From Branchinecta lynchi (lineage: Eukaryota > Arthropoda > Branchiopoda > Anostraca > Branchinectidae), in the NCBI GenBank assembly GCA_023053575.1, contig JAKZAP010000021.1, positions 1,247,501-1,311,500 on the forward strand: a DNA stretch of 64,000 nucleotides, given 5' to 3'. This document shows positions 11,465 through 53,735 of this stretch, piece after piece. How positions within the stretch are numbered: the stretch's first letter is position 1; each line of letters starts with the position of its first letter. The notes below the pieces were generated by a model. That model made no database searches, was not told where the DNA came from, and saw nothing but the letters and a program-made list of their open reading frames with translations. A program made the position numbers and the translations under genes.

Positions 11465-11640
11465 TGTTCCTTCTGCCCAAGCTGACTGCGAATCATATTT
11501 GTCGGTGCAAAACGGATAAGCCAGCTACACTTTATTCGAGCTATATTTCGGCCCTTCTTGGCATGGGTCCTCTTCAGGCTCAAGCTGCCTTATCCGTTTT
11601 GCATGGTCAAATATATTATGGAATAATCGTCTCGGACAGC
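11465..11640 (-). mobile_element. Ribozyme-bearing repeat, subfamily 2 copy
   Basis: Contains the arm CCCAAGCTGACTGCGAATCA, then GCAAAACGGATAAG, then a minus-strand hammerhead-like core at 11538-11581. After it, an inverted remnant of the outer arm (CTTATCCGTTTTGCAT) makes a short fold-back. Confidence 0.75.
11538..11581 (-). ncRNA. Hammerhead ribozyme-like motif, intact core
   Basis: Read on the minus strand: stem I 5' strand GAGC, then CTGAAGA (core CUGANGA), stem II GGACCC...GGGCC with one bulged A, core GAAA, a minimal stem III ATAT, cleavage-site base A, then GCTC closing stem I. All fixed core bases are present. The predicted cut lies between plus positions 11542 and 11541. Hammerheads with very short stem III are known from Penelope-like elements and animal retrozymes. 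Activity here is inferred. Confidence 0.7.
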
Positions 11641-11645
11641 TACCA

Positions 11646-12971
11646 GACATTCCCCAACTGAAAAATATTGTTTGATATGCTTTCAGTCACGAACAGATGC
11701 AATCCATTTGTCTGATTAGCTTTATGTTGTCGAATATGGATTAAATACATGTCCCAGTAAATTTTGTGTGCACAAGTAGGCTATTCAAAACAAAAGTCAT
11801 TGTCAGATGTACGGAACCAGTGTGACATTTACTAATGTTAGTGACTTCGATATGTTAGCCCTCTTCAACAGAAACAGTAGCCTTTCCTGGCAATCTATTA
11901 AATTAAATTTAAATTTTATTCCTAACCAGTCTAGTTAAAGATGGAGTATGGTATAAAAGGAAAAGAGAAAGAAACAACAGAACATCAATAACAACCAAAA
12001 TACTTAAAATTCAGGAAACCGGAACATCATGGAGCTCATGGGTGGTTACAGTTTCCCTTTGTCCTGTTGATGCATCTCAGGACAGCCGCAGACAGATCAG
12101 CCGTATGGATCTATAGCTTTATGGAACTGTTTCTAAACAATCAGAAATTAAAATTTGGCCAACATTTCATTTGAATTTTTTCTTATAGCATTTCGAAAAG
12201 CTAGCAGCAGTTGAGTTTTGTTTTTTTGCAACTTTTGGCTATTCCTTTTTTTTGTAGTGCTATGACTTCGCTGTGACAAATAAAATAACATGTCTGATTT
12301 TGATTGTTTGGTTGGTGAACAAATTCCAATGTTTTACCTTAAATATAAACAACAAGTTCTTGCATGGGCTAGAAACCGTTTGTTAGCTCTGTTCATGATA
12401 AATAAGCTATTTGCAGAGGCCTAGAAAGCAGGAAGGATAGTTGCAAAGCCAAGAAAGGTATCCAAGTTTATCTCATGGCCTAGGTTTTGAGATTGACAGC
12501 TGAAGTGAAGTGCTAAGGCACTAAGTTTATAGGAGTTTGCAACATACAGACAACACACTCTTAAGCTAGTTTGAAAGACACCAAGCTTTTAAAGGATGTA
12601 CTAAGCTGGTGTTTTGTTAGACTCGGACTAGCATACATGTCACATGTTGAGGTCAAATGCCCAGTTCAAGGATACTAGATAAGATCTCTATAAATACTCC
12701 TGAGAACAAGGTGCCTTGGAAAAAAATTTATATGGCAAGTCAGCTTTGTTATTCTTCAGCAGAATGTCTTGCCTTCTTGGCAAGGTTCTCTTCCACCTAT
12801 AGTCTGAAGATTCTGTTTAGATACTAGATACAACAGAGATAAGATCTAGCCTAGTACCTGTTTGGCACCGTATCTGCCTGGTTCTCTCTCAGATTTTTTA
12901 AATTGTAAACTGGTGACCAACTAAAACATAGAAACTAAAAGATCAAGAATGCATTTCTTGATTGTTTAAAC
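11646..12971. other. Upstream region of the HAUS8-like gene
   Basis: AT-rich, fewer repeats than its surroundings, short ORFs only. It would contain the promoter and 5' UTR of the gene starting at 12972. I cannot place a TATA box or transcription start. An element near 12759 (CTTCTTGGCAAGGTTCTCTTC) is a weak remnant of the ribozyme repeat. Confidence 0.4.
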
Positions 12972-13020
12972 ATGTCATTTGGGAATGGTGTGTCACAACT
13001 GTTGAAAACACTTCATACAG
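12972..13020 (+). CDS. HAUS8: HAUS8-like augmin subunit, exon 1 (start codon)
   Basis: ATG in the context TTTAAACATGTCA, encoding MSFGNGVSQLLKTLHT plus the first base of the next codon. It ends ATACAG before a consensus donor GTGAGA at 13021. The in-frame codon at 12936 is a stop, so this ATG is the likely start unless a short upstream exon joins between. Phase 1 matches the acceptor phase of the exon at 13323. The KSRY-type motif found near the start of vertebrate HAUS8 is not visible here, so the N-terminus may be reduced or another 5' exon may exist. Confidence 0.6.
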
Positions 13021-13322
13021 GTGAGATTATTTTTTAAGTGAGGGAAAAACGGGTGGAGTTTTTTTTTTTGTGGATCGAGCATTCTGAAATGCATGAACTC
13101 AAACCTGAACCTGACCGTTCAAGTATCTAAAGATGTCCACCAAGCATTAAAACTTCATATTGAGAGATTAAGAAACACTTTGTTTTGTTTTGCTTAGAGC
13201 ACCTTTGTTGTATGGCCTTGTAAGTGTTATCATTATCAAGTATTACATATTTAAGTATTATTAGTATTACGCGATACATTCTCTGTACCGTTTCATTTCC
13301 CGGTATGGTTTTCTTTTTTTAG

Positions 13323-13424
13323 GCTCCACAAAAAAGAATTCAACTCCGAGAAAAGGTCCAGCACCTAACATGACAATTGACATATCTGCCATAGCCCCAG
13401 CAAAGACGACCATGACGTCCCAAG
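13323..13424 (+). CDS. HAUS8: HAUS8-like augmin subunit, exon 2 (basic region, IDISAI motif)
   Basis: Acceptor TTTTTTTAG at 13322, donor CAAG|GTAAGA at 13425. Only one frame is open through the exon, and it is the one demanded by exon 1 (phase 1 in, phase 1 out). It encodes STKKNSTPRKGPAPN followed by MTIDISAIAPAKTTMTSQ. A basic, proline/serine-rich stretch followed by a D-[IL]-S-A-I motif is the arrangement in the microtubule-binding N-terminal part of HAUS8 (Hice1). Confidence 0.65.
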
Positions 13425-14261
13425 GTAAGACTTCCAGTTTAAAGGAGGGAGGGGGAATTTGGGATCTGGTGACCCCCATTAAGTTGTGAATGGGGGAGCT
13501 TGATGGGTGGTAGGCAGGTCTCTTTAGGTGTCTTGAAGTATGTCATTGTGAATGGGGGAGCTTGATGGGTGGTAGGCAGGTCTCTTTATGTGTCTTGAAG
13601 GATGTCGTTGGTGTCCTCTGGGAGGAGGTGGAGGGTGTCTCGGAATTGTCCGGAAGTTCTCAGATTGGAGGGAAACTTGATGGGTGGTAGGAGACATCCC
13701 AGACTAGACATTTATGTGTCTAAATCGAACCGACCTAGGTAAGCCCGATGAAAAACAGTCTTAAGCAATAGTATTCAGTAGCATCCAGTTAATAATAGCA
13801 TGCAGCGGTAACATTTACTACTGTGTGCTGTACAAACTTACAACTTTTCATGGGGGGTGGAGATGGGACCGGGCATTTTTGGAAGTGCATTCGATTCGAG
13901 TGACACTTGATGGAGGGTAGGAATAAATGCTCTGGAAGGGACAATGAAGTGCCCGAATACCATGTGACCTCAGTGGGGGGAGATGGGGGGGGGGGGGCAG
14001 AGATTTAGCAGAACAGCTGGGATACTTTTGTAGTCCTCGGTGGGGGAGTTGGAGTGGGGGCCGTACATTTTCCAGAAGTGCTCCGAATTGAAGGAAACTT
14101 GTAGGATGGTTTGAGCAAATGGTTTATATGTGATAGTTTATGTGGCCGATTTGGGTCCGACCTAGGTGAGTGAGTTGGAGTGGGACTGGTTTGGAAGTCC
14201 TCCGATACGAGTGGAACTTGTAGGGTGGTCTGAGCAAATACTCTAGATGAAAAATTATCCC
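13425..14261. repeat. Intron start with family D-type repeats and a 62-bp duplication
   Basis: 13486-13547 is repeated at 13548-13609 (GTGAATGGGGGAGCTTGATG and what follows). Downstream, G-rich blocks with GGGGGAGTTGGAGTGGG and GGAACTTGTAGGRTGGT resemble family D. Intronic; no gene seen. Confidence 0.6.
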
Positions 14262-14299
14262 AAAATAGTAGGACGAAGTGGTACGAAAAAGTAGCATGC

Positions 14300-15050
14300 A
14301 GTAATTCAATTCAATCCAATTTATTTTCAAAACCGATACAACGATCAAGCCGATTTGGTGGTTCTCGTCCATATCAACACTAATCATAGACAAAAGATAA
14401 TTCTGCACTAGTTTGGATATAACAAAGACTTGTCAAACATAACACAAAATACTCAAATCTGTTTACAGTTAACGATGCGAGTTAAAAAGGCTGACGAAGG
14501 CGGGAACAAAACTTCTTAAGGTAATGAGTCGTTGTGTGTTTATTTGGCTGCAATTTGAGTATTGCCTGGGCTACCATTCTCTCAGGCCTTACTCTGGCCG
14601 CTGAAAAATCTGGGAGGGAGAATATCACGTAATGCTGGTGTGTTCAAGATTCTAGTTCCAAACTTTGACGAAAGTTTTTCACGGCGCTTCAGCAGGGTTT
14701 CTAAATTATAAGTATTAAAGAGGTCTATATATGGTACTTGAGGGGACTTGGGAACTATAAGGAGGGCTCTAAACTGTATCCTGTCAAGCGAATCAGACTG
14801 TTCACGAGTAATCCCAAAGTGCCACACAGGGCAACAGTATTCCAGAAGTGGGCGTGTGAAAGAGAGATAAGCCCTTAGGAGATACTTGGGGGCTCCATAA
14901 CGGGAAAATATTTGAGGGAACGGAGGGACATGTTACCTTTCCTTGGCATAAATTCAACCTGTCTCTCCCACTTCAGATCCGCCGTTATGTGAGTGAACTC
15001 CCAAGAGTTTAAAGTTCCTTAACATGCTAAGAGTGAGGAATTGGAGGAAA
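14300..15050 (-). pseudogene. Non-LTR retrotransposon 3' end (RT C-terminal part)
   Basis: On the minus strand, a frame broken by frameshifts encodes YLSFTRPLLEYCCPVWHFG, then REQSDSLDRIQFRALLIV and RREKLSSKFGTRILNTPALR. This is the conserved post-RT region of CR1/L2-like LINEs (R-P-L-LEY...W, thumb, then the KRRE..L..FGTKIL block). The 3' end at 14300 carries an (ATTCA)-type tail, TTCAATTCAATCC on the plus strand. It is inserted within family G sequence (flanks at 14262-14300 and 15175-15290). Confidence 0.75.
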
Positions 15051-15453
15051 AAAAAACAGGGTTACTTTTTAAAAAGGACACTGTTAGAACCACTGATTTC
15101 TCCATTTTAACAACCATTTGCTCAATAGCGGCTTCAACACAAATATTATCTAACAATAATTGGGCACTGCCTGTTATGTCACTACGAGTGATGCTGGTAC
15201 CAACTAATGCTACTACATGCTACTATTGCAAGACTGGATGTTACTGGAGCAAGGCGGGATGCTACTGAATGCCTTAAAATTACGTTAAATCGCATCCTGT
15301 AGAGTCGCTGGTGGTGTGATGATTTTTTGGTTGAATTTTCTGATTGGCTTGTAGACAGCTAATGTCTGGTTGCTGACTCCGCTGCATCCCATTCGTACTT
15401 CCAGGCTTTTGACGACCATTCCTTGTCCAACTTAACTTTGAAAGCATCTACTA

Positions 15454-15715
15454 GCTGCGTTCGTTGCACTCCGGGCTGTCTCTGGTGTTTTGTCACCAGT
15501 GTCCGGTTCTTTAACGCGTTTTTCTGGTTCACCGGTGAGTTGATGAAAACTGGCTAACTCCTCGCTGAAGCCGGGCTCCCGAGCAGGTTCTGGTTAGTCC
15601 GCACCGGTGAGATAAACCGGACACTGGTTAGTTCAAAAATGGGTTATAAGACTGATGAGCAGCTGGTGAGCAACCGGAGACCACCGGTGAGAACTCCCGT
15701 GACAAAGAACGCAGC
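15454..15715. mobile_element. TA-flanked TIR element (262 bp)
   Basis: Begins GCTGCGTTCGTTGCACT and ends in an imperfect inverse (GTGACAAAGAACGCAGC), bounded by TA at 15452-15453 and 15716-15717. Internal inverted pieces include TGTCCGGTT and AACCGGACA. Non-coding. A TA duplication suggests a Tc1/mariner-type MITE, but no transposase is present to confirm. Confidence 0.65.
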
Positions 15716-15890
15716 TACTGTTTCTGCGTTTACAGTATCCTCGGACAGGGAGTCCCAGTTGTTGATCACTCAAACAAGAACGCCTTACAAGTCAAAATTG
15801 CATACCGCAGCTAGGAACAGTTAAACTGTTTAATAAAGTATGGTACAAAAGACTTTAGGTAACGCTCGGATGAGTGTATTGGAGGAGGAA

Positions 15891-16893
15891 TTAGTTGCTT
15901 CTTCTATTCATTGTGAGATTTTCGGTCATTCTTGTGTTTCGGCAACTTCTTTTTTCGGAGAACTCGGGCAAAATGTCACGATGTAATTCGGACGCTAGTA
16001 TTTTTGTGCCAAATCTCTTGGTAAGCATATGCCTCCTTTGTCTTAACGACGTGATCTTTAAGATCAAGCTTTTTTCATAATCCTCATATCCCATTCCCAA
16101 TATTATTTTGCATGCTCTCTTTTGGATCTGCTCAGTTTTTTCCTGTTGTTCTTCGTTGAGTGAGCTGTTCCAGGCAGGACATGCGTACTCTGTTAGGGGT
16201 CTGATGTACATTTTGTAGCATGTCAACAATAAATGCCTGTTGAGACCAAATTTCCGCAGATTTGAAAAAGACTTGAGTTGGCCAGATGCTTTGGAGACCA
16301 CTGACTTAACATGAGAATTCCATCCCAGGTCACTGTCAATATTTCGTCCGAGGATTTTGATGTTTTGGGTTGCCGTTAGTTCGTCCGATGTGAGCTCAGG
16401 TATGTCTCTTTTTAAGAAGTTGACTCGGAAGAGTGTTGTCTTTTCTTTGCTTATTTCGAGTTTCACTGCCTGAGCTTCCGATTTCAGTTCTTCCAACACC
16501 TGCATGACTGGGTCTTTTTGCGGAGCATCGGAAAGTAGTCGGAATAGGCCTACTATCAGGGATAAGTCATCAGCAAATTTGTAACGGTTGGTAAGTTCTC
16601 GGACCACTCTGTTTATGACTACGACAAAGGCAATAGGCCCTATCTTTGTACCTTGAGCTGCTCCACATGGGATATTAAGGACGTCAGATAGCTCCCCATC
16701 CTGAAGTTCGACGCACTGTTGTCGGTCTGAGAGAAAACTCCCAAGCATCCTCAAGACTATTTTTCTGGCTCCCATGGCTGATGCTGCGTCGATTACTATG
16801 GTGTGATCCGAGATGGTCAAATGCCTTCACAGTATCAGCAATTAAGCAGTGCTTGAGGATGTCGTGAATAAAGCGAACCAGGTGTTTGCGCAA
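15891..16893 (-). pseudogene. LINE reverse transcriptase fragment 1 (CR1/L2-like)
   Basis: A 309-codon open frame on the minus strand, joined by a frameshift near 16820 to an upstream piece (HDILKHCLIADTVKAFDHL). It contains RT blocks: SFLSDRQQCVEL, GAAQGTKIGPIAF (usual G.PQG..LGP), FADDLSL (catalytic Y/F-A-D-D), then the thumb and CYKMYIRPLTEYACPAWN, followed by KRACKIILG and RRHMLTKRFGTKIL. The endonuclease domain and the start are missing. Inactive. It is closely related to the fragment at 14300-15050. Confidence 0.85.
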
Positions 16894-17549
16894 TGGTTAT
16901 CCCAAGCCATCGATTTTTTTCCTCGGCTACGAGAACATTGCCTCCAACATTCACAGAGGGTTTCCGAGGAGTAGCAGTAGCGTTGAAACAAACATACTGA
17001 CATTTACTAGCGTTGACTGATAGGCTGATCTCGCCAAGGGATTGGTTCAGGCTACCGACGTTTGTTTCAAGGCCCTTCCTGGATCGGCTGACAAGGAGGA
17101 CGTCGTCGGCATAGGCCAGGTAGCTAACATTAATGCCACGGAAGTTAAAAGTTGGCGTAAGCTTTCTTAGGCATTGAGCAATCGCACATTTAAAAATCTG
17201 TGGCAATAGGACCCTGCCCTGTGGAACTCCCCTTTTCACTGTAGTAGGGTCACTCAGCCTGTCTTGCAATTTGACTACCAGCTTTCATTTGGAGTACCAC
17301 GATCTCAAGGCTAATATGACCGACCCTGTTTACGTCGTTTTCCATCAAAGACAGTAGAGCCTGGACGTGGTTAACGTTGTCAAAAGCCCCAGCGATGTCG
17401 ATTGCACAAAGATGAACTGTCTCTCTCTTTGCTGATGCTTGCTTTAGAATTTGGATCAGTGACTTATGGGCATGGGAGCATCCAATTCGTTTTCTGAAAC
17501 CATACTGTAGGCTTCCAAAGTCACATTTAGAAATAATTTGTGGTGCCAA
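16894..17549 (-). pseudogene. LINE reverse transcriptase fragment 2 (different family)
   Basis: The minus strand encodes QYGFRKRIGCSHAHKSLIQ, AIDIAGAFDNVNH, then after a frameshift near 17260 RGVPQGRVLLPQIF, YLAYADDVLLVSRSRKGLE and SLSVNASKCQYVCFN. These are RT fingers/palm blocks with an intact YADD. The sequence type differs from fragment 1 directly downstream, so the two are separate insertions abutting near 16890. Both ends are truncated and it is inactive. Confidence 0.85.
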
Positions 17550-17641
17550 AGTCTACTCGAAAAATTTTGTTGAGGATGCAGGAAATGGTAATTCGTCTGT
17601 TAGAGTTGCAGTGATTTGCATCTTTGCCTCTTTTTAATGTA

Positions 17642-17968
17642 GCGTTTACACGGACAAGAAATCCCGTCGAGTAGAAAGGAATTCCGGTCGACTAGAAAGG
17701 ATTCCGTTCTTGAAGACGAGTAGAAAAAAAGTCTAGCGGGACGGGAATCCTTTCATGATGAAAGGAATTCCGGACTACCTGAAAGGAATCTTGTCGGCTG
17801 CACTGGTAAAAAGTACTAAAAAAAAAGTCCAGCTAGCTTTTGAGAGCAGCAATCATCAGTACTGATGTCATAAATGCTCTCAAAACGTTTTTTTTATTGG
17901 CTAGTGAATTTATTTATGTCAGATTTTCTGGTTTGAAGAATTTATTTTTTTCCCTCTGCGTGTAAACA
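17642..17968. mobile_element. Putative TA-flanked MITE
   Basis: Left end GCGTTTACACGGACAAGA, right end CTGCGTGTAAAC, roughly inverse to each other. The interior repeats GAAAGGAATTCCGG-type motifs in both orientations. TA precedes the left end and lies 1 bp past the right end. No ORF. Confidence 0.5.
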
Positions 17969-18704
17969 TAATCTTGTCACCACGATCGGATTCTGTTCAA
18001 GTTTTCCTGTACTTGTAAACGCTGCATAAGAGGGGATAGTCGTACCCAGAAGAAAACTTTTCGGTAAGGTGGATGTTGGCAGGATCATCTGGAGTAATAG
18101 AGCTGGCAATAAGAGCTGGTGAATCGTACTTTAAATGCTTATGGGAAATGCCATGTCTATCTGGATTCCTCTTTTCTTCATGCTTTTCATTTGCATTGTG
18201 GCTGGCAGAGATTGTAATGGGGAAAACTTCATGTTGTTTTAACCTGGGTGACAAGTGACGGTCAGCGCAGACTGAAAAGACGGAAGATACCTTTTCACTT
18301 CTGTCAGAAAACAGTTTTGTGTAGTGAGACATCCAATCCATACAAGACAGGATGGAAGGTACCATAAGTAAGGTATAAGTAAGTCATTTATTTCTGACCC
18401 GCGATTTGAAAAGTGGAGTATGTAAAGTAAAATAAAAGAATTAAATAAAACACAACAAAATAGAATATGCAATTTTTCATTCATCGGCCAGGAAAGAATG
18501 TAGAGCGTCGTGCGTCAGTTGTCCAGGATTTTTGTCGGAGCCGACGAAATTTCCAAAAGTATGACGCTTGCATCTTTAACTTGGAAACGCTCCGTTAGCA
18601 TGTGGGAATGGTATAACTTTGTCAAATACAGCTGGTCCTTCGCAGACTTAAAATAACATCTTCTCATCTTCTACAACTCCTTCTTCCGTAGAACATGTGC
18701 AGAG

Positions 18705-18854
18705 TATAGCAGCATATTGTCAGTGCTCGAATGTGTCATCAAGAACATATGATACTACTGTATTTTTTCAGTTCCCCCTGTATAGCAGCATATTGTCAGT
18801 GCTCGAATGTGTCATCAAGAACATATGATACTACTGTATTTTTTCAGTTCCCCC
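18705..18854 (+). repeat. 75-bp direct duplication
   Basis: GTATAGCAGCATATTGTCAG and the following sequence to TTTTTTCAGTTCCCCC occur twice in succession with almost no divergence, so the duplication is recent. Intronic, non-coding. Confidence 0.9.
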
Positions 18855-19057: not shown

Positions 19058-19230
19058 AGTTCTTCAGTGATGTTTCGGCCCTTCTTGGCATGGGTCCTCT
19101 TCAGGCTTTAGGTGAAGAAACGAGCGTGCAATCAGGCTATCACCTTATGACAAATATCGCTGAAGAATATCCTACCTGACTTTTCCATTCTGAGTCATTT
19201 CTGTGTATGATTTCCACCCAGCTTGGGCTG
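19058..19230 (-). mobile_element. Ribozyme-bearing repeat, decayed
   Basis: The minus-strand core CTGAAGA/GGACCC...GGGCC/GAAA is present, but stem III reads ACAT and stem I no longer pairs, so the motif is probably inactive. The outer arm (CAGCTTGGGCTGAAGGAATG) is visible at 19211-19230. Confidence 0.6.
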
Positions 19231-19281
19231 AAGGAATGTTAATAGGTTTGCTACTACCAAAAACAAATAATCAGGTAGAAC

Positions 19282-19605
19282 CAGTCAACCACAAACCCCT
19301 GATTTTTGGATACCCTATGCCAAACGCCGGATATGTCTAGCGTTTGGCATAGCCTATGCCTAACGCTGGATACACTGTGCCAGGTGCTGGATACTGTAAC
19401 CCAGTAAAATATTGATGATTTGAGTGAAGCTACAAAATCAACCAATCAGAATTCCTTTCTATTGAGGTAGGTCAGGGTTAGGTTACCAACAGGTATCCAG
19501 CGTTTGGCATAGGGTATCCAGCGTTAGGCATAGGCTATGCTAAATGCTAGATATACCCAGCGTTTGGCATAGGGTATCCAAAAATCAGGGATTTGTGGTA
19601 GACTG
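19282..19605. mobile_element. hAT-like MITE with 8-bp target duplication
   Basis: 324 bp with inverted ends CAGTCAACCACAAACCCCTG and its near-inverse ending ...GGTAGACTG, flanked by the exact 8-bp repeat GGTAGAAC (19274-19281 and 19606-19613). The arms are long and contain repeated CCCTATGCCAAACGCTGG motifs, so the element folds back almost entirely. An 8-bp duplication and CAG.. termini fit the hAT superfamily. No ORF. Confidence 0.88.
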
Positions 19606-19613
19606 GGTAGAAC

Positions 19614-19984: not shown

Positions 19985-20015
<31 letters not shown>

Positions 20016-20109
20016 CATATATTTTTTCCCGTAGCATCTTTTGTAATTTAACTTATTTTTATATTACTTAAAAGCTAAGAAATCATATTTCGTACTTTTT
20101 GTGGCTAAA
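19614..20109. other. Unassigned sequence with a long T tract
   Basis: 19985-20010 is an uninterrupted T run followed by AT-rich sequence. This could be the poly(A) tail of a minus-strand retrocopy, but the adjoining sequence encodes nothing I recognise. Confidence 0.35.
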
Positions 20110-20356
20110 TATTCTTTGAGCCCAAGCTGACTTTGAAACATTTATTCAAACAATGTTTAGACGGATACGTCAGCTCTGATTTTTCATCAGCGATATTTCG
20201 GCCCTTCTTGGCAAGGGTCCTCGTCAGGCTGTCAATCTTCTTGTTCAACTTCGGGGAAGGAAACAAACCTGTAACCCTTGCCAAGAAGGGCCGAAATATC
20301 GCTGATGAAAAATCAGAGCTGACGTATCCGTCTAAACATTGTTTGAATAAATTTTT
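20110..20356. mobile_element. Ribozyme-bearing fold-back element, subfamily 1
   Basis: Two inverted arms (left 20130-20220, right about 20275-20350) share ACATTTATTCAAACAATGTT, GACGGATACGTCAGCT and the ribozyme half GGCCGAAATATCGCTGATG. The left arm has a complete minus-strand hammerhead-like core. The right arm has only the 3' half on the plus strand. Confidence 0.8.
20188..20231 (-). ncRNA. Hammerhead ribozyme-like motif, intact core
   Basis: Minus strand: CAGC, CTGACGA, stem II GGACCC...GGGCC, GAAA, ATAT stem III, cleavage base C, GCTG. Stem I is CAGC/GCTG, compensatory to the GAGC/GCTC of the other subfamily. The predicted cut lies between plus positions 20192 and 20191. Confidence 0.7.
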
Positions 20357-23125: not shown

Positions 23126-23245
23126 TAAGGGGACCTGACAAAATTGACGCACACATGAATATCAACGATACTAGCACCACTAGCGATAGAGAACGCCCCT
23201 ACTGAAGCACATTCAGTCGTTCATCAACCTCGCTGATGACTTCAT
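23126..23245 (-). mobile_element. Family A fragment, inverted
   Basis: Internal part of family A in reverse orientation (CACCACTAGCGATAGAGAAC and CATTCAGTCGTTCATC), directly after the full copy. No TIR. Confidence 0.6.
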
Positions 23246-23261
23246 TTTCTCGCCTATCCTC

Positions 23262-24115
23262 TAGGTTCTGTTCTAGGCCCTTTATTGTTAAGTCTGTACA
23301 TCAGTGACCTTGTGGACGGACTATATTCTACTATTCTGCTGTATGCTGATGACACGAAAGTATACGGAGTGATCGAATCCCCTGAAGACTCACTGCAACT
23401 ACAGGCTGATGTAGATGACATAAATCAATGGCTGATCGAAATCAACGCAACGAAAAGCCACCTGATGACCTTAGGACGAACTAAAGGCCGTCATTTATAA
23501 AATTGGAGACACCTCTCTAAGCAGCTGCGATGAGGAGAGGAATTTGGTTGTCATAGTTGACTCCCGAGTAAGCTTCCACAGCCACTATGAACAGACCATT
23601 TCCAAGGCTAACAAAGCTGCTGGTTTACTTCAAAGATCTTTTCAGTTTCAGGACGAGCATATGCTTACTACACTCTACGCTGTAACGGTGTGGGCCTTAC
23701 GCTGGTAAGGCCCACTCTCAAATATGTACACTGCTCAGTTAGACCCTTTTTACAATAGACATTGATACCCTCGAGACTGTTCAGCGGCGGTTCACAAGAT
23801 TCCCACCTAAACTGGGGCATCTCCCATACCAGCAAATGCTTGAAAGACTTAAAATCCATTCGCTGGCATACCGTTTCCAAAGGGGGGGGGGGGACCTCAC
23901 TGAGACATACAAGCTATGCCACTGTATGTACGAAAACGTCAAAGCTGACGACGTCATCAACTTCAACTTTAACAACTAATGCGGCCATAGCCTTAAACTC
24001 ACCACAGAGAGTTTCTGCATAGATATTGGTCGGTGGAGCTTCAAAACCGTGTGCCGCCCCAATGGAATCAACTGCCCGAACAAATAGCAAACTCTTAATC
24101 AATGAGCTGATTCAA
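23262..24115 (+). pseudogene. CR1-type LINE reverse transcriptase remnant
   Basis: Plus-strand RT with several frameshifts and stops. It starts at SVLGPLLLSLYISDL, then LLYADDTKVYGVI (catalytic YADD), QLQADVDDINQWLIEINATK, later SKANKAAGLLQR, LETVQRRFTR, KLGHLPYQQMLERLKI and a final domain with NGINC-like residues. The order matches the palm-to-C-terminus of CR1/Jockey-like LINEs. The N-terminal endonuclease is absent. A G run at 23882-23893 adds a frameshift. Confidence 0.85.
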
Positions 24116-24860: not shown

Positions 24861-25070
24861 TTATGTTTGACAGTGCAAAATGGATACCTCAGCTTAATTT
24901 TATTCAAGCTATATTTCGCTCTTCTTGGCAAGGGTCCTCTGCAGGCTCAAAGCCGCCCAAGTTGGAAAAAAAGTTCACAAAAAGCTCAAATAAAATTCAG
25001 CTGACGTAGCCATTTTGCACTGTCGAATATGATTCGCAGTCTGCTTGGGCTGAAGAAATACTTTTCAAAT
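24861..25070 (-). mobile_element. Ribozyme-bearing repeat, core mutated
   Basis: Fold-back arrangement with outer arms AGTGCAAAATGG and CATTTTGCACTGTCGAATAT. The minus-strand core at 24907-24948 reads CTGCAGA instead of CTGANGA, so the conserved A6 is lost and it should be inactive. Confidence 0.7.
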
Positions 25071-26274: not shown

Positions 26275-26882
26275 TTAAATACTTTCCAGGTAGTTTTTAA
26301 GTTAGGTTGCCCATGACACGCCCAAAGTAATAAGCTGTGTTGCCATCATCCAGTTAACCGACCTATAAGATTTCCCACTATCAGTTGTTTTCTTCCTTCA
26401 AGTTAATCGAAGTAAGTTTTTATAAGCTATTTTTGGGCTCCATTTGCCGGTCGGTTAACCGTGCTGTGGACTGAGGCAGGAGCTCCATCCAACCGACCTA
26501 CGCTCTTGGCACTGCGCAAATTATAAATTCTCATTGATTTAAAATACTTTCCAGGTAGTTTTTAAGTTAGGTTGCCCACAACACTCCCAAAGTAATAAGC
26601 TGTGTTTTTTGACGTCATCCAGTCAACCGACCTACAAGATTTCCCACTATAAGTCGTTTTCTTCCTTCAAATCAACCAACCTAAGTTTTTATAAGCTGTT
26701 TTTGGCTCTGTTTCCCGGTCGGTTAACTGTCCTGTGGACTGAGGCAGGAGCCCCATCCAACCGATCTACGCTCCTGGCACTGCACAAATCAAAAATGCCT
26801 GAAGAGGACCCTTGCCAAGAAGGGCAGAAATATAGCTCAAATAAAATGTAGCTGACTTATCCATTTTGTACTGTCAAATATT
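26275..26882 (+). repeat. Direct duplication of about 264 bp
   Basis: AATACTTTCCAGGTAGTTTT and the next 260 bases occur at 26275 and again at 26539, about 90% alike by eye. Both contain CAACCGACCTA and GTCGGTTAAC motifs. The second copy is interrupted by a ribozyme-type fragment at 26795-26880. Confidence 0.85.
26795..26838 (+). ncRNA. Hammerhead-like motif, probably inactive
   Basis: CTGAAGA and GAAA are kept, but the closing base of stem II is A (GGGCAGAAA) and stem I (ATGC with GCTC) does not pair fully. Confidence 0.5.
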
Positions 26883-28829: not shown

Positions 28830-29860
28830 AAGATAGTCGATTATGGGGTAAGAAGACATGCTGAACACGATGGTGAAAACCATTTTGTCATCGGACAAGT
28901 AGTTCGCCCGGAATCCGGCCAAAACCGGAAAGTTTGTTGAAAGTAAAAGTTTTATTTGAAGTTGATTAGATGTTCGATTTAGGGGTAGGAAGACATGCTG
29001 AAGACGATGGTGAAAATTATTTTCTCGACGGACAAGTATTTCGCCCGGAATCCGGCCCAAACCGGAAAGTTTGTTGAAAGTAAAAGTTTTATTTGAAATT
29101 GATTAGATGTTCGATTTAGGGGTAGGAAGACATGCTGAAGACGATGGTGAAAACTATTTTCTCGATGGACAAGTATTTCGCCCGGAATCCGGCCCAAACC
29201 GGAAAGTTTGTTGAGAGTAAAAGTTTTATTTGAAGTTGATTAAATGTTCGATTTAGAGGTAGAGAGACATGCTGAAGACGATGGTGAAAACTATTTTCTC
29301 GACGGACAAGTATTTCGACCGGAATCCGGCCCAAACCGGAAAGTTCGTCGAAATAAAAAGTTTAATTTGGAGTTGATTGGATGTTCGATTTAGGGCAAGA
29401 ACACATGCTGAACACTTATGTGAAAATAAGTTTCTACCCGGACATTTAGTTCGTCCGGAATCCGGCCAAAACCGGAAAACTGTTGGAAGTCAAAGTTTTA
29501 TTTCTAGTTGATTAGATAAGCGATTTAGGGGTAAGAAGAGATGCTGAGTCCCTGTGTGACAATCGTATTTTACCCGGACATATAGTTCGACCGGAATCCG
29601 GCTGGAATCGGAAAATTTGTTATAAGCTAAATTTCTATTTGAAGTTGATTAGATGTTCATTACTGGGGAAAGAAGATACCCTGATTTCGTCTTTGAGCTT
29701 TCTTTTTTTGCCGGACAAGTAGTTCTGGAGTTCGGCCGGAACCGGGAAATTGGCAGAAGTGGCAGGAAGTTTTCGTCAAAACAGATATGACTTATAGGGG
29801 TAAACACACATGCTGAATCCAAATCTGAACTTGGTTTTCTCGGGTGATTAGCTATTTGGC
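28830..29860 (+). repeat. 137-bp tandem repeat array
   Basis: About seven units of 137 bp, the first ones highly alike (for example starting at about 28843, 28980, 29117 and 29254). Landmarks per unit are GTTCGATTTAGGGGTA, GAAGACATGCTGAA, CGCCCGGAATCCGGCC and AACCGGAAAGTTTGTTG. Divergence rises toward 29860. Minus-strand ORFs in it just mirror the period. Related single units lie at 36780-37530. Confidence 0.93.
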
Positions 29861-31977: not shown

Positions 31978-32275
31978 TCAGCCGTGATTTGAACCCAGGA
32001 CCCTCTTCTTACAAGGCAGGCGCTCTACCAACTGAGCTACCATATGTAAAATGTTTCCATCTCAAGGGCGTTTTCCCCATTGAAATTATATATTTGGCTC
32101 TATTTAGTTTTCACCATGGGACCCCGCCCTGTGGGTCCTGGTATGTCTACGTGGCTCCTACAATGGAGTACTAGACCGCTAAATTAAATTCGAAAAAACT
32201 GTTTCTAGTTTATTGGTCACGGTACAAGTCCCTTGTGTAAAGTGCCATCTGTGTATTATAACATTCAGTGTATTT
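31978..32275 (-). mobile_element. tRNA-derived SINE
   Basis: On the minus strand the head reads GGTAGCTCAGTTGGTAGAGC (D-arm/A box) and later GGGTTCAAATC (B box). The anticodon loop position reads TGT (Thr-like), but the anticodon and T stems pair poorly, so this is a pseudo-tRNA/SINE head rather than a gene. The plus-strand 3' part (TTATTGGTCACGGTACAAGT) is shared with 2214-2290. Confidence 0.6.
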
Positions 32276-34039: not shown

Positions 34040-34197
34040 ACACACCTTCATATATTCAAATAATGTATATAACGGATACGATTCTTCATCAGCAATATTT
34101 CGGTCCTTCTTGGGCAAGGGTCAAGGGGCAAGGGTTCGTTATATACATTATTTGAATAAATGTTTCAAAGTCAGCTTGGGCTCAAAGAATATTTGAA
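34040..34197. mobile_element. Ribozyme-bearing repeat, degenerate fold-back
   Basis: Arms AATAATGTATATAACGGATA and its inverse bracket a broken core (ATATTTCGGTCCTTCTTGGG on the plus strand). The outer arm CAAAGTCAGCTTGGGCTCAA is at 34167-34186. Confidence 0.65.
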
Positions 34198-35161: not shown

Positions 35162-35625
35162 GTCTATTCTCCTTTTACATGGGATAAATGTGTTTATTTT
35201 AAAGCGGGTGTAGATAGGGAGGAATTGAAATTATTAATTAGTATGCCTGCTGATATTTTACCCCTGGGAGATAGGAGGAGGTGCACGGGTAGGCCGATTG
35301 GGAGAATTGGTCCTTACTTCTGCCCGATGGGTGGAGAGATGAATGAGTGTGTGCGACATCTTATGCATGCCTGTAGGGAATTGAATGATTTGATAAGCGA
35401 AATATTTGGTGTAAATGAGTGTGATGAACAATGGATGGAGCAAATGTTTAAGAGTGAGTGTTATGCTACTATAAAGAAAGGGGGCAGATTCCTCAAGCTC
35501 TCAATGATTCACAGAGAATATTTTTTGTAGTTTTAGTAGTTATTAGAAATAAGTTCGTCATTGTGTTTCCTTCTGTTTGTATTGCCATGACCCTTGGGCT
35601 TTTAGGGTAATACATATCATATCTA
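35162..35625 (+). pseudogene. LINE 3' end with zinc-knuckle-like C-terminus
   Basis: An open frame ends at 35530 with LKLLISMPADILPLGDRRRC, YFCPMGGEMNECVRHLMHAC and KKGGRFLKLS. The C-P-M-x-G-x(n)-H-x(3)-H-x-C pattern is the terminal zinc-binding motif of LINE ORF2 proteins. The 3' UTR (CATGACCCTTGGGCTTTTAG ... ATATCATATC) is shared with 50740-50848. The frame is read in continuity with family F at its 5' side, so the LINE is 5'-truncated. Confidence 0.7.
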
Positions 35626-35823
35626 AATACTCTTTGAGCCCAGTCCGACTTAGAAACATTTATTCAAACAAACAACGGATATACGTCAACTACGATTCTT
35701 CATCAGCGATATTTGAGCAGTCGAAGATATAATCCTGATGCGGATTGACAGCCAGAGGATTGACATTGACAGCCAGAGGATTACAGCTATGTTTCCTTCC
35801 CCGAAGTTGAACAAGAGGATTGA

Positions 35824-35867
35824 CAGCCTGACGAGGACCCTTGCCAAGAAGGGCCGAAATATCGCTG
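35824..35867 (+). ncRNA. Hammerhead ribozyme-like motif, intact core
   Basis: CAGC, CTGACGA, GGACCC...GGGCC, GAAA, ATAT, C, GCTG: every fixed core base is present and stem I is 4 bp. Predicted cut after C at 35863. Stem III is a bare ATAT palindrome, which in known minimal hammerheads works better as a dimer. Confidence 0.75.
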
Positions 35868-35951
35868 TAGAAGAATCGTAGCTGACGTATCCGTTGAAAA
35901 CATTGTTTGAATAAATGTTTCAAAGTCAGCTTGGGCTCAAAGAATATTTGA

Positions 35952-35994
35952 CAGCCTGACGAGGACCTTGCCAAGAATGGCCGAAATATCGCTG
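35952..35994 (+). ncRNA. Hammerhead ribozyme-like motif, core intact, stem II altered
   Basis: Same layout as 35824-35867, starting 128 bp downstream in the same orientation. One C is missing in GGACC and the return strand is TGGCC, so stem II is shorter. Predicted cut after C at 35990. Confidence 0.65.
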
Positions 35995-36124
35995 ATGAAG
36001 AATCGTAGCTGACGTATATCTATTGTAAACATTTTTTGAATAATCATATCATATCATAGCTTATTACAGCGGGGGGGGGGGGGGTAGATTGTATAGAAAA
36101 TGTATAATATTTTGTTTTGTTCAG

Positions 36125-39439: not shown

Positions 39440-40295
39440 TTTTATGGAGTCTACCGGATTACTGCTCAGGGAACCTACCGGAATTTTGCTAAGGGCATCT
39501 ACCGAAGTCTTTTCATGGAATCTACCGGAACTTGTCTCAGGGAATTTACTGGAGGCTGGATCAGGGATCTACCGGACTTTGCCCCACGGAATATACTAGA
39601 ATTTTAGAATCTACCGGAATTTTGCTCAGGGAATCTACCGGAATTTTCCTCAGAGAATTTACCGGAGTTTTGCTCAGGGAAACTACCAGAATTTTGTTCA
39701 GGACATCCACAGAAATCTTGCTCAAGGGATCTACCGGAACTTGTCTCAGGGAATTAACTGGAGACTGGGTCAGAGGATTTACCGGACTTCGTCACACGGA
39801 ATCTCCTAGAATTTTGGAATCTACCGGAATTTTGCTCAGGGAATCTACCGGAATTTTGCTCAGAGAAACTACCGGAATTTCGCTCCTGGAATCTACCGGA
39901 ATTTTGCTTTGCGAATCTACCGGAATTTTGCTCAGGGAACCTACCAGAATTTTGCTCAGTGAAACTACCGGAATTTTGCTCCTGGAATCTACAGGAATTT
40001 TGCTTTGCCAAGCTACCGGATTTGCTCAGGGAACCTACCGGAATTTTGCTCAGGGCATCTACCGAAATCTTGCTCAAGGAATCTACCGGAACTTCTCAGG
40101 AAATTTACTGGAGGCTGAATCAGGGAATCTACCGAAATTTTGCTGAGGGAATCTACCGAAGTCTTTCTCAAGTAATTTATCGGAACTTATCTCGGGGAAT
40201 TTACTAGAGGCTGGCTGGATCGGGGAATCAACCGGACTTCGCTCCACGGTATCAACCAGAATTTGGCTCAGGGAATCTACCGGAATTTTGTTGCT
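39440..40295 (+). repeat. 24-bp minisatellite, about 35 units
   Basis: Unit CTACCGGAATTTTGCTCAGG plus GAAT, 24 bp. Because 24 is divisible by 3, long ORFs appear on both strands (plus 39532-40146, repeating ESTGILLR; minus 39754-40077, repeating SGRFPEQN). Higher-order structure is visible: the GGAGGCTGGATCAGGGATCT variant recurs at about 39550, 39760, 40110 and 40205. I do not regard it as a gene. Confidence 0.93.
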
Positions 40296-41149: not shown

Positions 41150-41460
41150 TTTCTTATTTGATAGTGCAATACGGATACGTCAGCTGAATTTTATTAGAGC
41201 TATATTTTGGCCCTTCTTAGCAAGGGTCCTCTTCTGGCTCAAAGCCGCTCAAGTTGAAAAAAAGAACTTAAGGGAAAACCACCAAGTTCGTTTTCCCACA
41301 AACTTTTTTTTCCCACAAGTCATTTTTCCAACTTGAACGGCTTTGAGCCAGAAGAGGACCCTTGCCAAGAGGGTCCGAAATATAGCTCTAATAAAATTCA
41401 GCAGACGTATCCGTTTTGCACTATCAAATATGATTCGCAGTCAGCTGAAGGAATATTGAA
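41150..41460. mobile_element. Ribozyme-bearing fold-back element, large hairpin
   Basis: Two arms of about 130 bp (41162-41260 and 41325-41430) are almost perfect inverse copies (GCAATACGGATACGTCAGCT against the inverse AGCAGACGTATCCG, and CTTGAACGGCTTTGAGCC), with a spacer of about 65 bp. Both arms carry the ribozyme region, but the core reads CAGAAGA instead of CTGAAGA in each, and the left arm also lost GAAA. Inactive core, shared by both arms. Confidence 0.85.
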
Positions 41461-44059: not shown

Positions 44060-44195
44060 CTGTTTCTCACAAGTTCGTTTTTCCAACTTGAGCGGTTTTG
44101 AGCCTGAAGAGGACCCTTGCCAAGAAGGGCCGAAATATAGCTCTAATAAAATTCAGCTGACGTATCCGTTTTGCACTATCAAATGTGCTTTATAT
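44060..44195 (+). mobile_element. Ribozyme-bearing repeat, subfamily 2 (single arm)
   Basis: TTCCAACTTGAGCGGTTTTG, the ribozyme core, then AAATTCAGCTGACGTATCCG and TTTTGCACTATCAAATGT. It lacks the opposite arm, so it is not a fold-back here. Confidence 0.8.
44100..44143 (+). ncRNA. Hammerhead ribozyme-like motif, intact core
   Basis: GAGC, CTGAAGA, GGACCC...GGGCC, GAAA, ATAT, A, GCTC. Complete core and 4-bp stem I. Predicted cut after A at 44139. This is the best-preserved subfamily 2 copy and is not in a hairpin, so its RNA could fold freely. Confidence 0.75.
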
Positions 44196-46868: not shown

Positions 46869-46984
46869 GTAAGTTTTGTTTGGAACATGGCATCATCAGA
46901 TTGTGTAGTAGCCTACATTGTGAGGAGGTTGATACATTGTGAGGAGGTTGATAACATTTAACATAAAGAGCCACACTTACAACA

Positions 46985-47035
46985 GACAACACTAAATATT
47001 CCTTGAGCCCAAGCTGACTTTGAAACATATATTAA
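46985..47035 (-). mobile_element. Ribozyme-repeat outer arm fragment
   Basis: AATATTCCTTGAGCCCAAGC then TGACTTTGAAACATATATT; only the outer arm, no ribozyme core. Confidence 0.6.
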
Positions 47036-50000: not shown

Positions 50001-50645
50001 AAGAGGCTCATCTGATACCGTTACTCTACCACAAACCAAAGTGCAAAAAAAAAAAAATTATAAACTCAGCTGAAATCGTCGCAGACATGGACAGAAACAA
50101 TAGATGGCAGCACTTTCGGACCCGTGGGAAAAAGCCACTTTTTTTTCTCTGTAGATTTTTCTATTCATCACTCAAAGAAGATATGTTGGCTGTGGGGCCG
50201 GGTAACTGCCGCATATATTTAACACTTATAGATTTTAGTCCATCTTCAATTTGAAACTGGTGCCTGCCTGCTTGCGTGCTAGAACGGAGCTTTCCACTGG
50301 AAAGCAGAAACATCTTTTGATGAAACGAAAGGTTCGCTACACAACTTCAGATAGTCCTCTCTGACATAGGCTATACAACTCCACTTCACTTCGCAAACCG
50401 TAGGCTCTGGCTCGATGACAAGCAAAAACCATCCTTATTGGCCCCAGGCAAGAGTTCTACGGAGCTTTCCAAAATGTAATGTCATATTCATCAATCCGGC
50501 CTAAGGTCCACACTTTCCGTAAAAACCGCACAGGTTAGACCCTTCTCAGTTACCAGGAATAAAATGAAATCGGAGTCATAGGAAAAAAAAAAAAAAAAAA
50601 AAAAAAAAAACGAGGACAAAACCAAAGTGTTGCTCTCGCAACACA
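47036..50645. repeat. 3.6-kb composite repeat block bounded by inverted ends
   Basis: Begins with an 18-bp palindrome (ACGTTGCCCGGGCAACGT at 47051-47068) and GTGTTGCGAGAGCAACACTT (47110). Ends with the inverse AAGTGTTGCTCTCGCAACAC near 50625, next to a run of about 28 A. Inside, a unit starting ATCCGTAACTTTTCAGGATT recurs at about 47279, 47890, 48646 and 49195, and CATCGTGACGGATGAAAACT recurs between them. No long ORF; units encode nothing recognised. Confidence 0.8.
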
Positions 50646-50848
50646 ATTATGCGGAGTAGGGATTTTCTTAGTATAAGAAACCTGGCTAGGTTCCTCAGAG
50701 TGGCCAGTCTGCACAGGGAAAAGTGTTTGAGTGGGGTTTAGTGTAGTAGTGTGACCGTATATTTTGTATTTACATGTTGTTATTTATGTGTGTTTGTTAT
50801 GGCCTTTGGGCTTTGAAGACAAATAAATATCATATCATATCATATTCA
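50646..50848 (+). pseudogene. LINE 3' end, (ATATC)n tail
   Basis: RNLARFLRVASLHREKCLS-like frame then a stop near 50744. The 3' UTR TGTTATGGCCTTTGGGCTTT and tail AATATCATATCATATCAT match the LINE end at 35580-35625. Confidence 0.6.
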
Positions 50849-50992
50849 AATAATCAGGCTATCAATCTTCAGGGTCAACGTCGGGGAAGGAAACAAACTT
50901 GCAATGGACAATGGATTGCAGTTTTGTTTCCTTCCCCGACGTTGACCCTGAAGATTGGCAGCCTGACGAGGTCCCTTAATTTAAATTTCAAT
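50849..50992. mobile_element. Ribozyme-repeat fragment, truncated core
   Basis: Fold-back of AATCTTCAGGGTCAACGTCG and GACGTTGACCCTGAAGATTG around CAATGGACAATGGATTG. The plus-strand core begins (CAGCCTGACGAGGTCCC) and is cut at 50977. Confidence 0.65.
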
Positions 50993-50994
50993 TT

Positions 50995-51640
50995 ATTTTC
51001 AAAATTCCTTCACGGGCAAGTCGAACATTGGATTTTTCGTCCTAAATATATTATAATTTAATTAAATATAATAGAAAAGTCATAATTTTGTCATAAATAA
51101 TAAACTTATATACAATTCGAATCACTGTAAGTGATCATTTACAGTTACACTTATATCAGAACTGAAAATCAAATAACCGTAACATAAACAAGAGTTACGA
51201 CGAATTATGCATTTCGACGAATGACGTCACATTACACGTATGTCAGAACTAGGATTGAAACAATTATAAAATAAGCAAGAATTACGCTGAATTATACACC
51301 AATTAAGACGAGTTATACATTTCGACCAATGACGGTATGTAGCTTTTTCTCTACCGGTCATGAGATGCAGAAACAGGATGTAACTTAGGAATCGGCTGCG
51401 AAACCATTCGCGAAGGTCTAGGCCTAACGGGTTGAAACTCGGGCGGGAAAATGTCTCGCAGACGAGGATTCTAAAGCGTCTTAACTCCAAATTTAAGGCA
51501 CATTTTTTCCCGACGTAGGGCCAAAGATTCCAGCTTGAAACTCAATGAATCAATCAAGTTTAATCCGAATAGCTAAAAGCTAGAAAAGGAATACAAATTT
51601 ACAAAATACACAGACACTCAAGAAACAAATTAACTAATAC
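50995..51640 (-). pseudogene. LINE 3' ends on minus strand
   Basis: The plus-strand sequence AATTTCAATTTATTTTCAAA (50985-51005) and ATCAATCAAGTTTAATCC (51549) are the inverse of LINE 3' tails. Adjoining short frames are too broken to assign. Confidence 0.4.
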
Positions 51641-51659
51641 ACTTACAAGAAATTACCAG

Positions 51660-51955
51660 AAATAAATGATGGAATGAAACTACGTAAAAATTGGGTAGAA
51701 GAATTAGCGGGATATGGGGAAAACTTATTGCCAGTATTCCTCTCGGACCGACGCACGGAAGACGGGAGGGGAGGGGCGAATAGATGGGTCATCTGGGGAC
51801 AACACGTTATCTTAGCTCCAAAAGAAGAACTCCGAAGAAGCTCAATGTATGGCACCTTTAGCGAGGAGGGAGGGGTCGGAAGGCTCGGAATTGCAATCTC
51901 TCCAACGAATTCGACTGAACCCGTGTCAAAAATAAATTGAATTGAATTTAAGACA
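51660..51955 (+). pseudogene. LINE C-terminus with (TTGAA)n tail
   Basis: Frame MKLRKNWVEELAGYGENLLP, FLSDRRTEDGRG, FSEEGGVGRLGIAISPTN to a stop at 51940, directly followed by AATAAATTGAATTGAATT. The tail and position suggest a LINE ORF2 end; family not identified. Confidence 0.45.
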
Positions 51956-52439
51956 AAATTGCGCTTACATTCTATGAAACTTTTGGCAACGTATCGACGT
52001 GACCGTAGTTCATTTCGTAACTGGAGTTGCGTTTTATTTGAGTTCATAGTACAGCGGGAGCGGATGGCGAACTGTAAATAGTCGTTTTATTCCTGGTGGA
52101 CTACGTCAGAAGGTACGCTGAACTGTTCTCTGCCCCACCCGGCGTACAAACTAGTGGGTCCGCTGGCACTTAGCGGGCGCCCCGCTGGCAAATTAAACGA
52201 CTTCGGCACCCCGCGCCTTCCCAGCGTACGGCTCGCTGGCGAATAAAACGACAACGAACAGTCCGCTGTACTATGAACTTCAAATAAAACGCAACTTGGA
52301 TGTATATAACAATTCTGGGATAACGTTCTATGATACATGTCCACCATAAGACTGCGTGATTGTTTATTTGTCTCGCCCATCTCGCACGGGGATTGGTTCA
52401 GACACGCTGCTAGAAAATAAAACAACAAGCTAGAACCCC
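51956..52439. other. Unassigned; a fold-back of CGCTGGCAAATTAAACGA motifs
   Basis: GTTGCGTTTTATTTGAGTTC (52027) and its inverse (GAACTTCAAATAAAACGCAA at 52276) bracket about 230 bp with internal GCTGGCAAATTAAACGAC. This is probably another TIR-type element (about 52021-52300). Confidence 0.6.
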
Positions 52440-52660
52440 TTCGCTAGGGTCCAATCCAACATGACTAAGAAATTCCGAAAAGACATTGGAAAATGGAGCT
52501 TTAGAAACCGAATAGTAGAATATTGGAACAATCTCCCAGAAAGTGTTGTAAATGCCGAAAATATCAGCCAGTTCGACGAGGGTGTCGACTACCGCCTGGC
52601 TGAAATTAAGTTCAAAATTCAAGATGCACTTTTGGCTGTTTCTTCATTGCTATAAAAAAT
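52440..52660 (+). pseudogene. CR1/Jockey-like LINE C-terminus
   Basis: Frame FRKDIGKWSFRNRIVEYWNN, LPESVVNAENISQFDEGVD then a stop at 52655. F.F.NR+++YWN.LP..VV.A..+..F+...D is the standard terminal motif of these LINEs. Confidence 0.85.
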
Positions 52661-52779
52661 CATTGACAACCGAGCCCAACCAGCGTGCGACCTTCTCCAC
52701 TGCTTCCTGACCGAAAATTGAAAATTAGTGTCTTTATGTCTTTTATCTATTTTCTTTCATTTGGTCCGCTTTTTTTTTG

Positions 52780-53385
52780 GCACTAGCAGCTCCGCTCAAG
52801 TGCCATATACCGATCACTTTTCGGTCGGTCTGTCTGTCAGGCCACTAATCTCTGTTTAGGGTACTTCTAGATGTGCTAGGACAATGAAACTTGGCAGGCA
52901 TGCTAGGGACCCTACCAAACTAATTTGGACATAGTCACTTTCCCGATTCACCCCCCATGGGGGGAGTGGAGGGAGGGGGAACCCGGGTTATTTATAACTT
53001 TCGAACGGGTAATCGGATCTTTAATGAAACTTAATATTTGGAAGGACCTCGTGCCTCAGATGTTCCACTGTGCGGACTGGATCCGATCAATGTGGGGGAG
53101 TCGGGGGGGGGGGGGGAGCGGAAATGTTGTGACACGCTTGGAATATAACAATTGGGATAAGACTTGGTGGGAAGAACAAGCATAAGCCCTATGCATACTC
53201 GGACCGGATTCGGTCAGTCTGGGGGAGTTGGACGGGGTCTTGAATTCCAGTGATCGCAGTTTAAGGTAGGCTACTTCCAGATGTGCTAGGACGATGAAAC
53301 TTTGGCTTGAACATTAGAGACTTGACAAGATTGGCTTAGAAATTGTCACTTCCCAGATCCGACCATCCCTTAAAGTACTCATCTT
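52780..53385 (+). repeat. Family D repeat
   Basis: AAGTGCCATATACCGATCAC, GGTCTGTCTGTC, AATGAAACTTGGCAGGCATG and G-rich blocks, in the order seen at 38600-39400. Confidence 0.78.
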
Positions 53386-53539
53386 AACCGCAAAGTACAA
53401 AAAATACTTTTACGCCAAACCTACATTTTCATGATCCCCTTGAGCCCACGATCATTTTTGGATGATTATACAGAAGAAAAAAATTTACCAAACGATACAA
53501 TCTCATGATTTCTAAGGATCCATCGTCATTAGATGTTCC

Positions 53540-53735
53540 TAGGGCCCAAGCTGACTGCGAATCATATTTGACGGTGCAAAACGGATAATCCAGCTACAGT
53601 TTATTCGAGCTATATTTCGGCCCTTCTTGACAGCTCAGCCGCTCAAGTTGGAAAATAAACTTGAAAAAGAAGGGCCGAAATATAGCTCGAATAAAATGTA
53701 GCTGACTTATCCGTTTTGCACCGTCAAATACCATC
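53540..53735. mobile_element. Ribozyme-bearing fold-back, deleted core
   Basis: Arms GCTGACTGCGAATCATATTT plus GCAAAACGGATAATCC, and the inverse GACTTATCCGTTTTGCACCG, are well paired. Only the 3' half of the ribozyme region (GGGCCGAAATATAGCTC) remains in each arm. CTGANGA is missing from both. Confidence 0.75.

Follow-up and report, generated by a model that had tools for sequence, protein, structure and literature searches.

Dispersed short repeats with a minimal type I hammerhead core in Branchinecta lynchi, probably pieces of Penelope-like terminal repeats

A 64,000-nt stretch of the Branchinecta lynchi genome (Arthropoda; Branchiopoda; Anostraca; GenBank assembly GCA_023053575.1, contig JAKZAP010000021.1, positions 1,247,501 to 1,311,500 of the forward strand), hereafter the window, contains a dispersed family of short repeats that carry the core of a type I hammerhead ribozyme. 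The original prediction described a common block at about 12 sites. When the right-hand part of this block was searched as the pattern CCAAGAAGGGCCGAAATAT with up to 3 mismatches, 13 matches were obtained in the window against 0.02 expected, and one more damaged copy (24910–24944, reverse strand) brought the total to 14 sites, a count that leaves out a badly decayed relic near 12.75 kb. The arrangement CTGA[A/C]GA...GAAA is intact at 7 of the 14 sites (these are 7 of its 16 pattern matches, the other 9 being unrelated), while the core is changed at three, to CAGAAGA (41201–41236 and 41349–41384) or CTGCAGA (24910–24944), and only its 3' half is present at the remaining four (20281, 34094, 53611, and 53665). 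The conserved CUGANGA ... GAAA ... UH core of the type I hammerhead is complete at 5 of the 14. The individual copies are as follows.

11538–11581, reverse strand: complete minimal hammerhead of subfamily B with GAGC/GCTC as stem I, predicted to be cut between 11542 and 11541
19069–19104, reverse strand: copy with intact 5' core, stem I and AUAU broken
20188–20231, reverse strand: complete minimal hammerhead of subfamily A, predicted cut between 20192 and 20191
24910–24944, reverse strand: damaged copy, CTGCAGA, stem II minus one base
26799–26834, forward strand: copy truncated on the 5' side of its core, without stem I and with an altered pair in stem II, ending 3' at the inner site (defined below)
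35824–35867, forward strand: complete minimal hammerhead of subfamily A, stem I CAGC/GCTG extending to 5 bp, predicted cut after 35863
35952–35994, forward strand: complete hammerhead of subfamily A, second of a tandem pair, stem II one base shorter, predicted cut after 35990
41201–41236, reverse strand: damaged copy, 5' core CAGAAGA and 3' core CAAAA, in one arm of the 41.1 kb inverted repeat
41349–41384, forward strand: damaged copy, CAGAAGA, bulge-less stem II, in the opposite arm of the 41.1 kb inverted repeat
44100–44143, forward strand: complete minimal hammerhead of subfamily B, predicted cut after 44139

A strict descriptor that called for H17, the core, a stem I of at least 4, a stem II of at least 4 containing one bulge, and a stem III closed by A...U, with both stems required, was passed by five sites (11542, 20192, 35828, 35956, and 44104). 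The same descriptor gave a mean of 0.035 and a maximum of 2 on 200 dinucleotide shuffles, which rules out a chance origin of the motif; the type I hammerhead core in this dispersed family is real. The claimed abundance of the block is hence borne out at 14 sites, far above chance, but a whole, paired hammerhead exists in only five of them. Scans of viral and of prokaryote contigs with the exact pattern gave 0 matches each, as expected for an animal host.

In the cleanest copies, stem II is formed by GG-A-CCCUU paired with AAGGG-CC, leaving one bulged A and a GCCAAG loop. Stem I divides the family into two subfamilies as originally proposed, with CAGC/GCUG in subfamily A (20192, 35828, and 35956) and GAGC/GCUC in subfamily B (11542, 44104, and both 41.1 kb arms), and is broken at 19069 and 26799; when it is allowed to pair freely, G-U included, it reaches 6 in the 11538–11581 copy. 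Over 10 copies, 90.7% of the 108 cells of stems I and II are paired, and this value drops to 53.7% or less when the partner strand is shifted. Free folding of 53–55-nt pieces of four copies (35828, 20192, 44104, and 11542) also yielded stems I and II. The result depends on the stretch taken, as 44096–44150 (55 nt) folds as a hammerhead whereas 44090–44155 folds otherwise, and the free fold of the 35956 copy does not favour the hammerhead. Thermodynamic z-scores of six folded stretches ranged from 0.19 to −3.08, so that folding energy alone is insufficient for the hammerhead case. The type I reading was therefore upheld for the core and for stems I and II, but not for stem III: the AUAU previously assigned to it is loopless in all five complete copies and forms no hairpin within one molecule.

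The paired change in stem I had been offered as the argument for a conserved RNA structure. It amounts to a single base pair, CG versus GC, with CG in 3 of 10 copies, and the number of double-changed pairs (1 of 11) was equalled in 433 of 500 shuffles, although the covariation score was reached by only 4 of the 500. Covariation of one pair was hence set aside as the main proof. The distribution of sequence identity was examined by comparing two copies of subfamily A with three of subfamily B over the 36-nt core, 25 nt upstream, and 78 columns downstream. In the core, 33–34 of 36 positions are shared with subfamily A by the two complete B copies and 31 of 36 by the damaged 41.1 kb copy. Upstream, identity is 7 of 25 where the B copy has the flank (44104 and 41.1 kb), and downstream it is 42–47 of 78 where the B copy has the arm (11542 and 41.1 kb); the truncated arms, 11542 upstream (4–5 of 25) and 44104 downstream (32 of 78), were left out of these figures. 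The cleanest pair, 35828 and 44104, differs within the core at N7 and H17 only, two positions at which hammerheads may differ. The hammerhead core is thus conserved well above its flanks.

The copies lie in insertions with defined boundaries. Among 12 loci examined for flanking duplications, seven are bounded by target-site duplications (TSDs) of 8–13 bp, whose lengths are 12 bp (20.1 and 41.1 kb), 12–13 bp (11.5 kb), 11 bp (53.5 and 35.7 kb), and 8 bp (24.8 and 34.1 kb). These insertions are listed below, together with one example of the terminal tail.

11463–11613, reverse strand: insertion of 151 bp, head-to-head inverted repeat, TSD TATTATGGAATA (13 bp with one ambiguous base)
20108–20351, reverse strand: insertion of 244 bp, TSD TTTTTGTGGCTA, 83-nt arms 99% complementary
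24866–25066, forward strand: insertion of about 201 bp, 8-bp repeat AAATTATG, six outer-end bases not aligning with the family
34050–34196, forward strand: insertion of about 147 bp, 8-bp repeat ACACCTTC
35624–36044, reverse strand: compound insertion of one inverted and two tandem arms, flanked by CATATCATATC
41154–41458, forward strand: insertion of 305 bp, TSD AAAATCATTTTC, 127-nt arms that each contain a damaged hammerhead copy
53531–53730, reverse strand: insertion of 200 bp, TSD CCATCGTCATT, arms with the 3' half of the core only
53531–53564, reverse strand: example of the one-sided tail, 34 nt, outside the inverted repeat

All seven are 147–421 bp long and consist of head-to-head inverted arms, of which one end is about 33 nt longer than the other in every case. 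The ends fall at two sites downstream of the predicted cut: an inner site at 44–46 nt in subfamily B and 51–53 nt in subfamily A, and an outer site at 77–80 nt and 85–87 nt, respectively. Each of the seven has one inner and one outer end, with 0–2 leftover terminal bases except for the 6 at the outer end of the 24.8 kb insert. If the ends were chosen independently, unequal pairs would make up at most half, and seven out of seven would arise with a chance of at most 0.8%, a figure that serves as a guide only, as some duplications were found by looking near the expected ends. A single duplication proves little, since two 28-nt flanks from this repeat-rich window shared an 11-mer in 1017 of 200,000 trials. 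Elsewhere, the 26.8 kb copy ends at the inner site, the 44.1 kb copy near it, and the 46.9 kb piece is an outer-end fragment, while one side of the 19.1 kb copy stops at the outer site and its other end is unclear. At 50854–50977, an inverted repeat is built solely of subfamily A sequence that runs from upstream into the core and stops after its first half; it has no 3' arm. The family supplies 8 of the 11 inverted-repeat pairs of at least 40 nt in the window, two of the 8 coming from one locus. A separate 114-nt inverted repeat of GCGTTTGGCATAG-type units (19281–19606) lies beside the hammerhead family but stands outside it.

These ends bear on two explanations in which the ribozyme would be incidental. 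A foldback DNA transposon or a miniature inverted-repeat transposable element (MITE), with an inner arm that resembles a hammerhead by coincidence, would account for the long inverted repeats, the small size, and the lack of recognised coding capacity, but its duplications should not vary as those found here do (8, 11, and 12–13 bp). The unequal ends in 7 of 7 inserts already disfavour it, as does a core conserved far above its flanks and changed at N7 and H17. Likewise, a short interspersed element (SINE) moved by long interspersed element (LINE) machinery, with the core present by chance, is compatible with the TSD lengths and with the reverse transcriptase (RT) fragments in the window, one of which is R2-like. 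Against this, no poly(A) or simple-repeat 3' end was found at the seven insertions, which terminate at two fixed sites and as a rule have a head-to-head arrangement. Both explanations were rejected on the insertion ends, and we consider each of them highly improbable.

The same anatomy recalls Penelope-like elements (PLEs). Cervera and De la Pena (2014) and Lunse et al. (2017) reportedly described PLEs with minimal type I hammerheads. According to the available parts of two accounts, PLE hammerheads lack helix III, occur as thousands of minimal copies dispersed in animal genomes, possibly act as dimers, and in some cases are located in the PLE terminal repeats, or pLTRs (PMC6155905, PMC7761336). 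The present copies resemble them in having stems I and II without helix III and in their dispersal, and differ in that no open reading frame (ORF) is attached here and their sequence has not been tied to any named PLE. A close parallel is Poseidon PAc of Anolis carolinensis, whose hammerhead consists of stems I and II only, cuts 26 nt into the ORF, and is followed by RT start sites at 111–118 (PMC11167929). This element starts reverse transcription at two internal sites, of which the intervening stretch makes a 30–40 bp tail, and extends both target strands from the same start sites (PMC11167929). Two adjacent start sites bounding a tail of 30–40 nt are thus common to both, and the distance of 85–92 nt between cut and RT start in PAc compares with 77–87 nt to the outer end here, whereas the PAc ORF begins at stem II and no PLE ORF was recognised in our copies (PMC11167929). 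A further parallel is found in Penelope of the rotifer Adineta vaga, for which the accessible portion of PMC3846280 describes inverted pLTRs, mostly head to head, with an optional 31-bp tail on one of them, some solo pLTRs, and TSDs of 8–10 bp in several cases and none in others. Those pLTRs measure about 190–220 bp and in most cases border an ORF or some other cargo, unlike ours, and that portion makes no mention of a hammerhead (PMC3846280).

A non-autonomous animal retrozyme, in which circular RNAs of small size that carry type I hammerheads are mobilised by PLE or LINE enzymes, shares several of these traits. Animal non-LTR retrozymes are likewise short, dispersed, and non-autonomous, carry type I hammerheads, and have TSDs of more than 4 bp; the amphibian ones may have a very weak helix III, as far as the consulted part of PMC7229834 relates. 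The tandem arms at 35.8–36.0 kb, with 127 nt between the predicted cuts, would fit one such unit. However, the same part describes mostly canonical hammerheads in tandem, RNAs of about 170–400 nt, and no tail (PMC7229834), while in the window a canonical helix III is lacking, the copies flanked by TSDs have inverted arms, and a tail on one side only is characteristic of PLEs. A retrozyme is accordingly an unlikely source of this family, though a better candidate than a MITE or a SINE.

A mobilising enzyme was sought by a Pfam scan that covered 48 of the 126 listed ORFs (at least 80 aa). It gave four RVT_1 fragments and one Tox-GHH domain; hAT was matched weakly, and a few other matches stayed under the cut-off. 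The RVT_1 fragments are broken and located at 15891–17552 (reverse strand) and 23240–23500 (forward strand); their motifs appear to be of LINE type. A 311-aa RT piece had no match in the PDB and one relative, and the NCBIfam search of the RT fragments gave only matches far below the cut-off. The family copies themselves are too short to encode an RT, and we infer that a PLE enzyme would be supplied from elsewhere in the genome.

Taken together, the one-sided tail, the inverted ends, the minimal hammerhead, and the distance between cut and end (PMC11167929; PMC3846280 in its available portion) make it quite probable that the repeats are short pieces of PLE-type terminal repeats moved by target-primed reverse transcription. 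The family, which the original prediction could not place, thus fits the PLEs by its insertion ends. Its PLE-type minimal hammerhead is of an already known kind, and the family itself is new.

A number of observations weigh against this placement. It rests on anatomy and not on a sequence match to a named PLE. No GIY-YIG domain was detected in the 48 of 126 ORFs scanned, in agreement with the earlier remark that no Penelope-type RT with this domain is visible. The 149-aa RVT_1 fragment at 16835–17284 has R2 elements as its nearest solved structures, and the three other fragments were not classed by PDB or NCBIfam comparison; RVT_1 also matches PLEs and alone cannot tell a LINE from a PLE, so our confidence was slightly lowered. 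No duplication of at least 8 bp was found at 5 of the 12 loci (19.1, 26.8, 37.6, 44.1, and 50.9 kb), two of the seven duplications are just 8 bp long, six outer bases remain unaligned at 24.8 kb, and the 35.7 kb TSD is less certain since its site is CATAT-repetitive. An inverted copy at about 37.55–37.63 kb without TSD has the inner site at both ends. Folding of three stretches gave no significant or clear stem-loop in the tail or at the start sites, whereas the Anolis PLE has an AC-rich stem-loop. A double hammerhead was less stable than two monomers for 4 of 4 copies (ViennaRNA), which leaves the idea of a dimer resting on the literature. Finally, the covariance-model check suggested for the original prediction failed, as Rfam scans of the window at the gathering threshold and at E ≤ 10 gave no hammerhead match. 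This result is not taken by us as a refutation, because PLE hammerheads are described without helix III in the available parts of PMC6155905 and PMC7761336. The microRNA families that appeared in the E ≤ 10 scan were below their gathering scores and were dismissed as chance matches to long hairpins.

On the PLE placement, the insertions might arise as follows. A transcript with the terminal repeat would carry the minimal type I hammerhead, in which AUAU replaces stem III beside stems I and II, and would be bound by a PLE protein. Both target strands would then be cut, about 8–13 bp apart, and reverse transcription would start at the inner (44–53 nt) or the outer (77–87 nt) site 3' of the predicted cut, the two start sites being about 33 nt apart. 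Two copies joined head to head would fill the staggered cut, which would leave an inverted repeat, a one-sided tail, and a duplication of 8–13 bp. The hammerhead, which is presumed to cleave itself at the predicted sites, could trim read-through or tandem transcripts, perhaps as an AUAU-joined dimer or with the help of a protein, as PAc required a PLE protein. Cleavage seems not to be needed for insertion: of the 21 arms that reach the 3' side in local alignment, 15 extend upstream of the predicted cut, which suggests that most templates were uncut, and this agrees with the uncut RNA suggested as the dominant substrate in vitro (PMC11167929). Arms that start at the cut were considered as a sign of cleaved templates, but with 1 of 21 they are not enriched.

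It is tempting, though doubtful, to regard the pattern of one inner and one outer end as a record of insertion, in which each nicked strand primes its own reverse transcription of the sense RNA, one at the inner and one at the outer site, before both cDNAs are linked head to head. Self-priming on an antisense template was proposed for inverted PLE copies in the accessible portion of PMC3846280; it would be expected to continue through the tail. On the two-strand reading, parts of the ribozyme would lie on both strands of the inserts, which may, equally tentatively, represent a non-autonomous class of PLEs made of terminal repeats only. Against this, the start sites used by the Anolis enzyme in vitro did not differ from one strand to the other (PMC11167929), and both ends of the 37.6 kb copy lie at the inner site.

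The remaining features of the window are the following.

4157–5140, forward strand: ORF with a Tox-GHH domain (Pfam PF15636) at its end, which looks like the C-terminus of an animal teneurin; one 80% identical relative
28837–29658: 137-bp unit in six tandem copies
31981–32040, reverse strand: tRNA-like stretch, possibly left over from a SINE or a tRNA (Rfam score 30.8 against a gathering score of 29; no ARAGORN call)
39446–40290: 24-bp minisatellite of about 36 copies, with ORFs of more than 100 codons on both strands
60746–61087, forward strand: dimerisation region of hAT transposases matched weakly, slightly under the cut-off; the ORFs beside it look like more hAT pieces and have no Pfam match
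60990–61735: 369-bp unit tandemly duplicated at 99% identity, overlapping the hAT-like piece, either a recent event or an assembly effect

The value of the hammerhead family lies in its short copies, in which the two ends of every insertion can be read cleanly. Should the pattern of one inner and one outer end hold genome-wide, it would provide a direct test of the PLE insertion route, which the in vitro study left unvalidated (PMC11167929), and would also test whether hammerhead cleavage matters for insertion.

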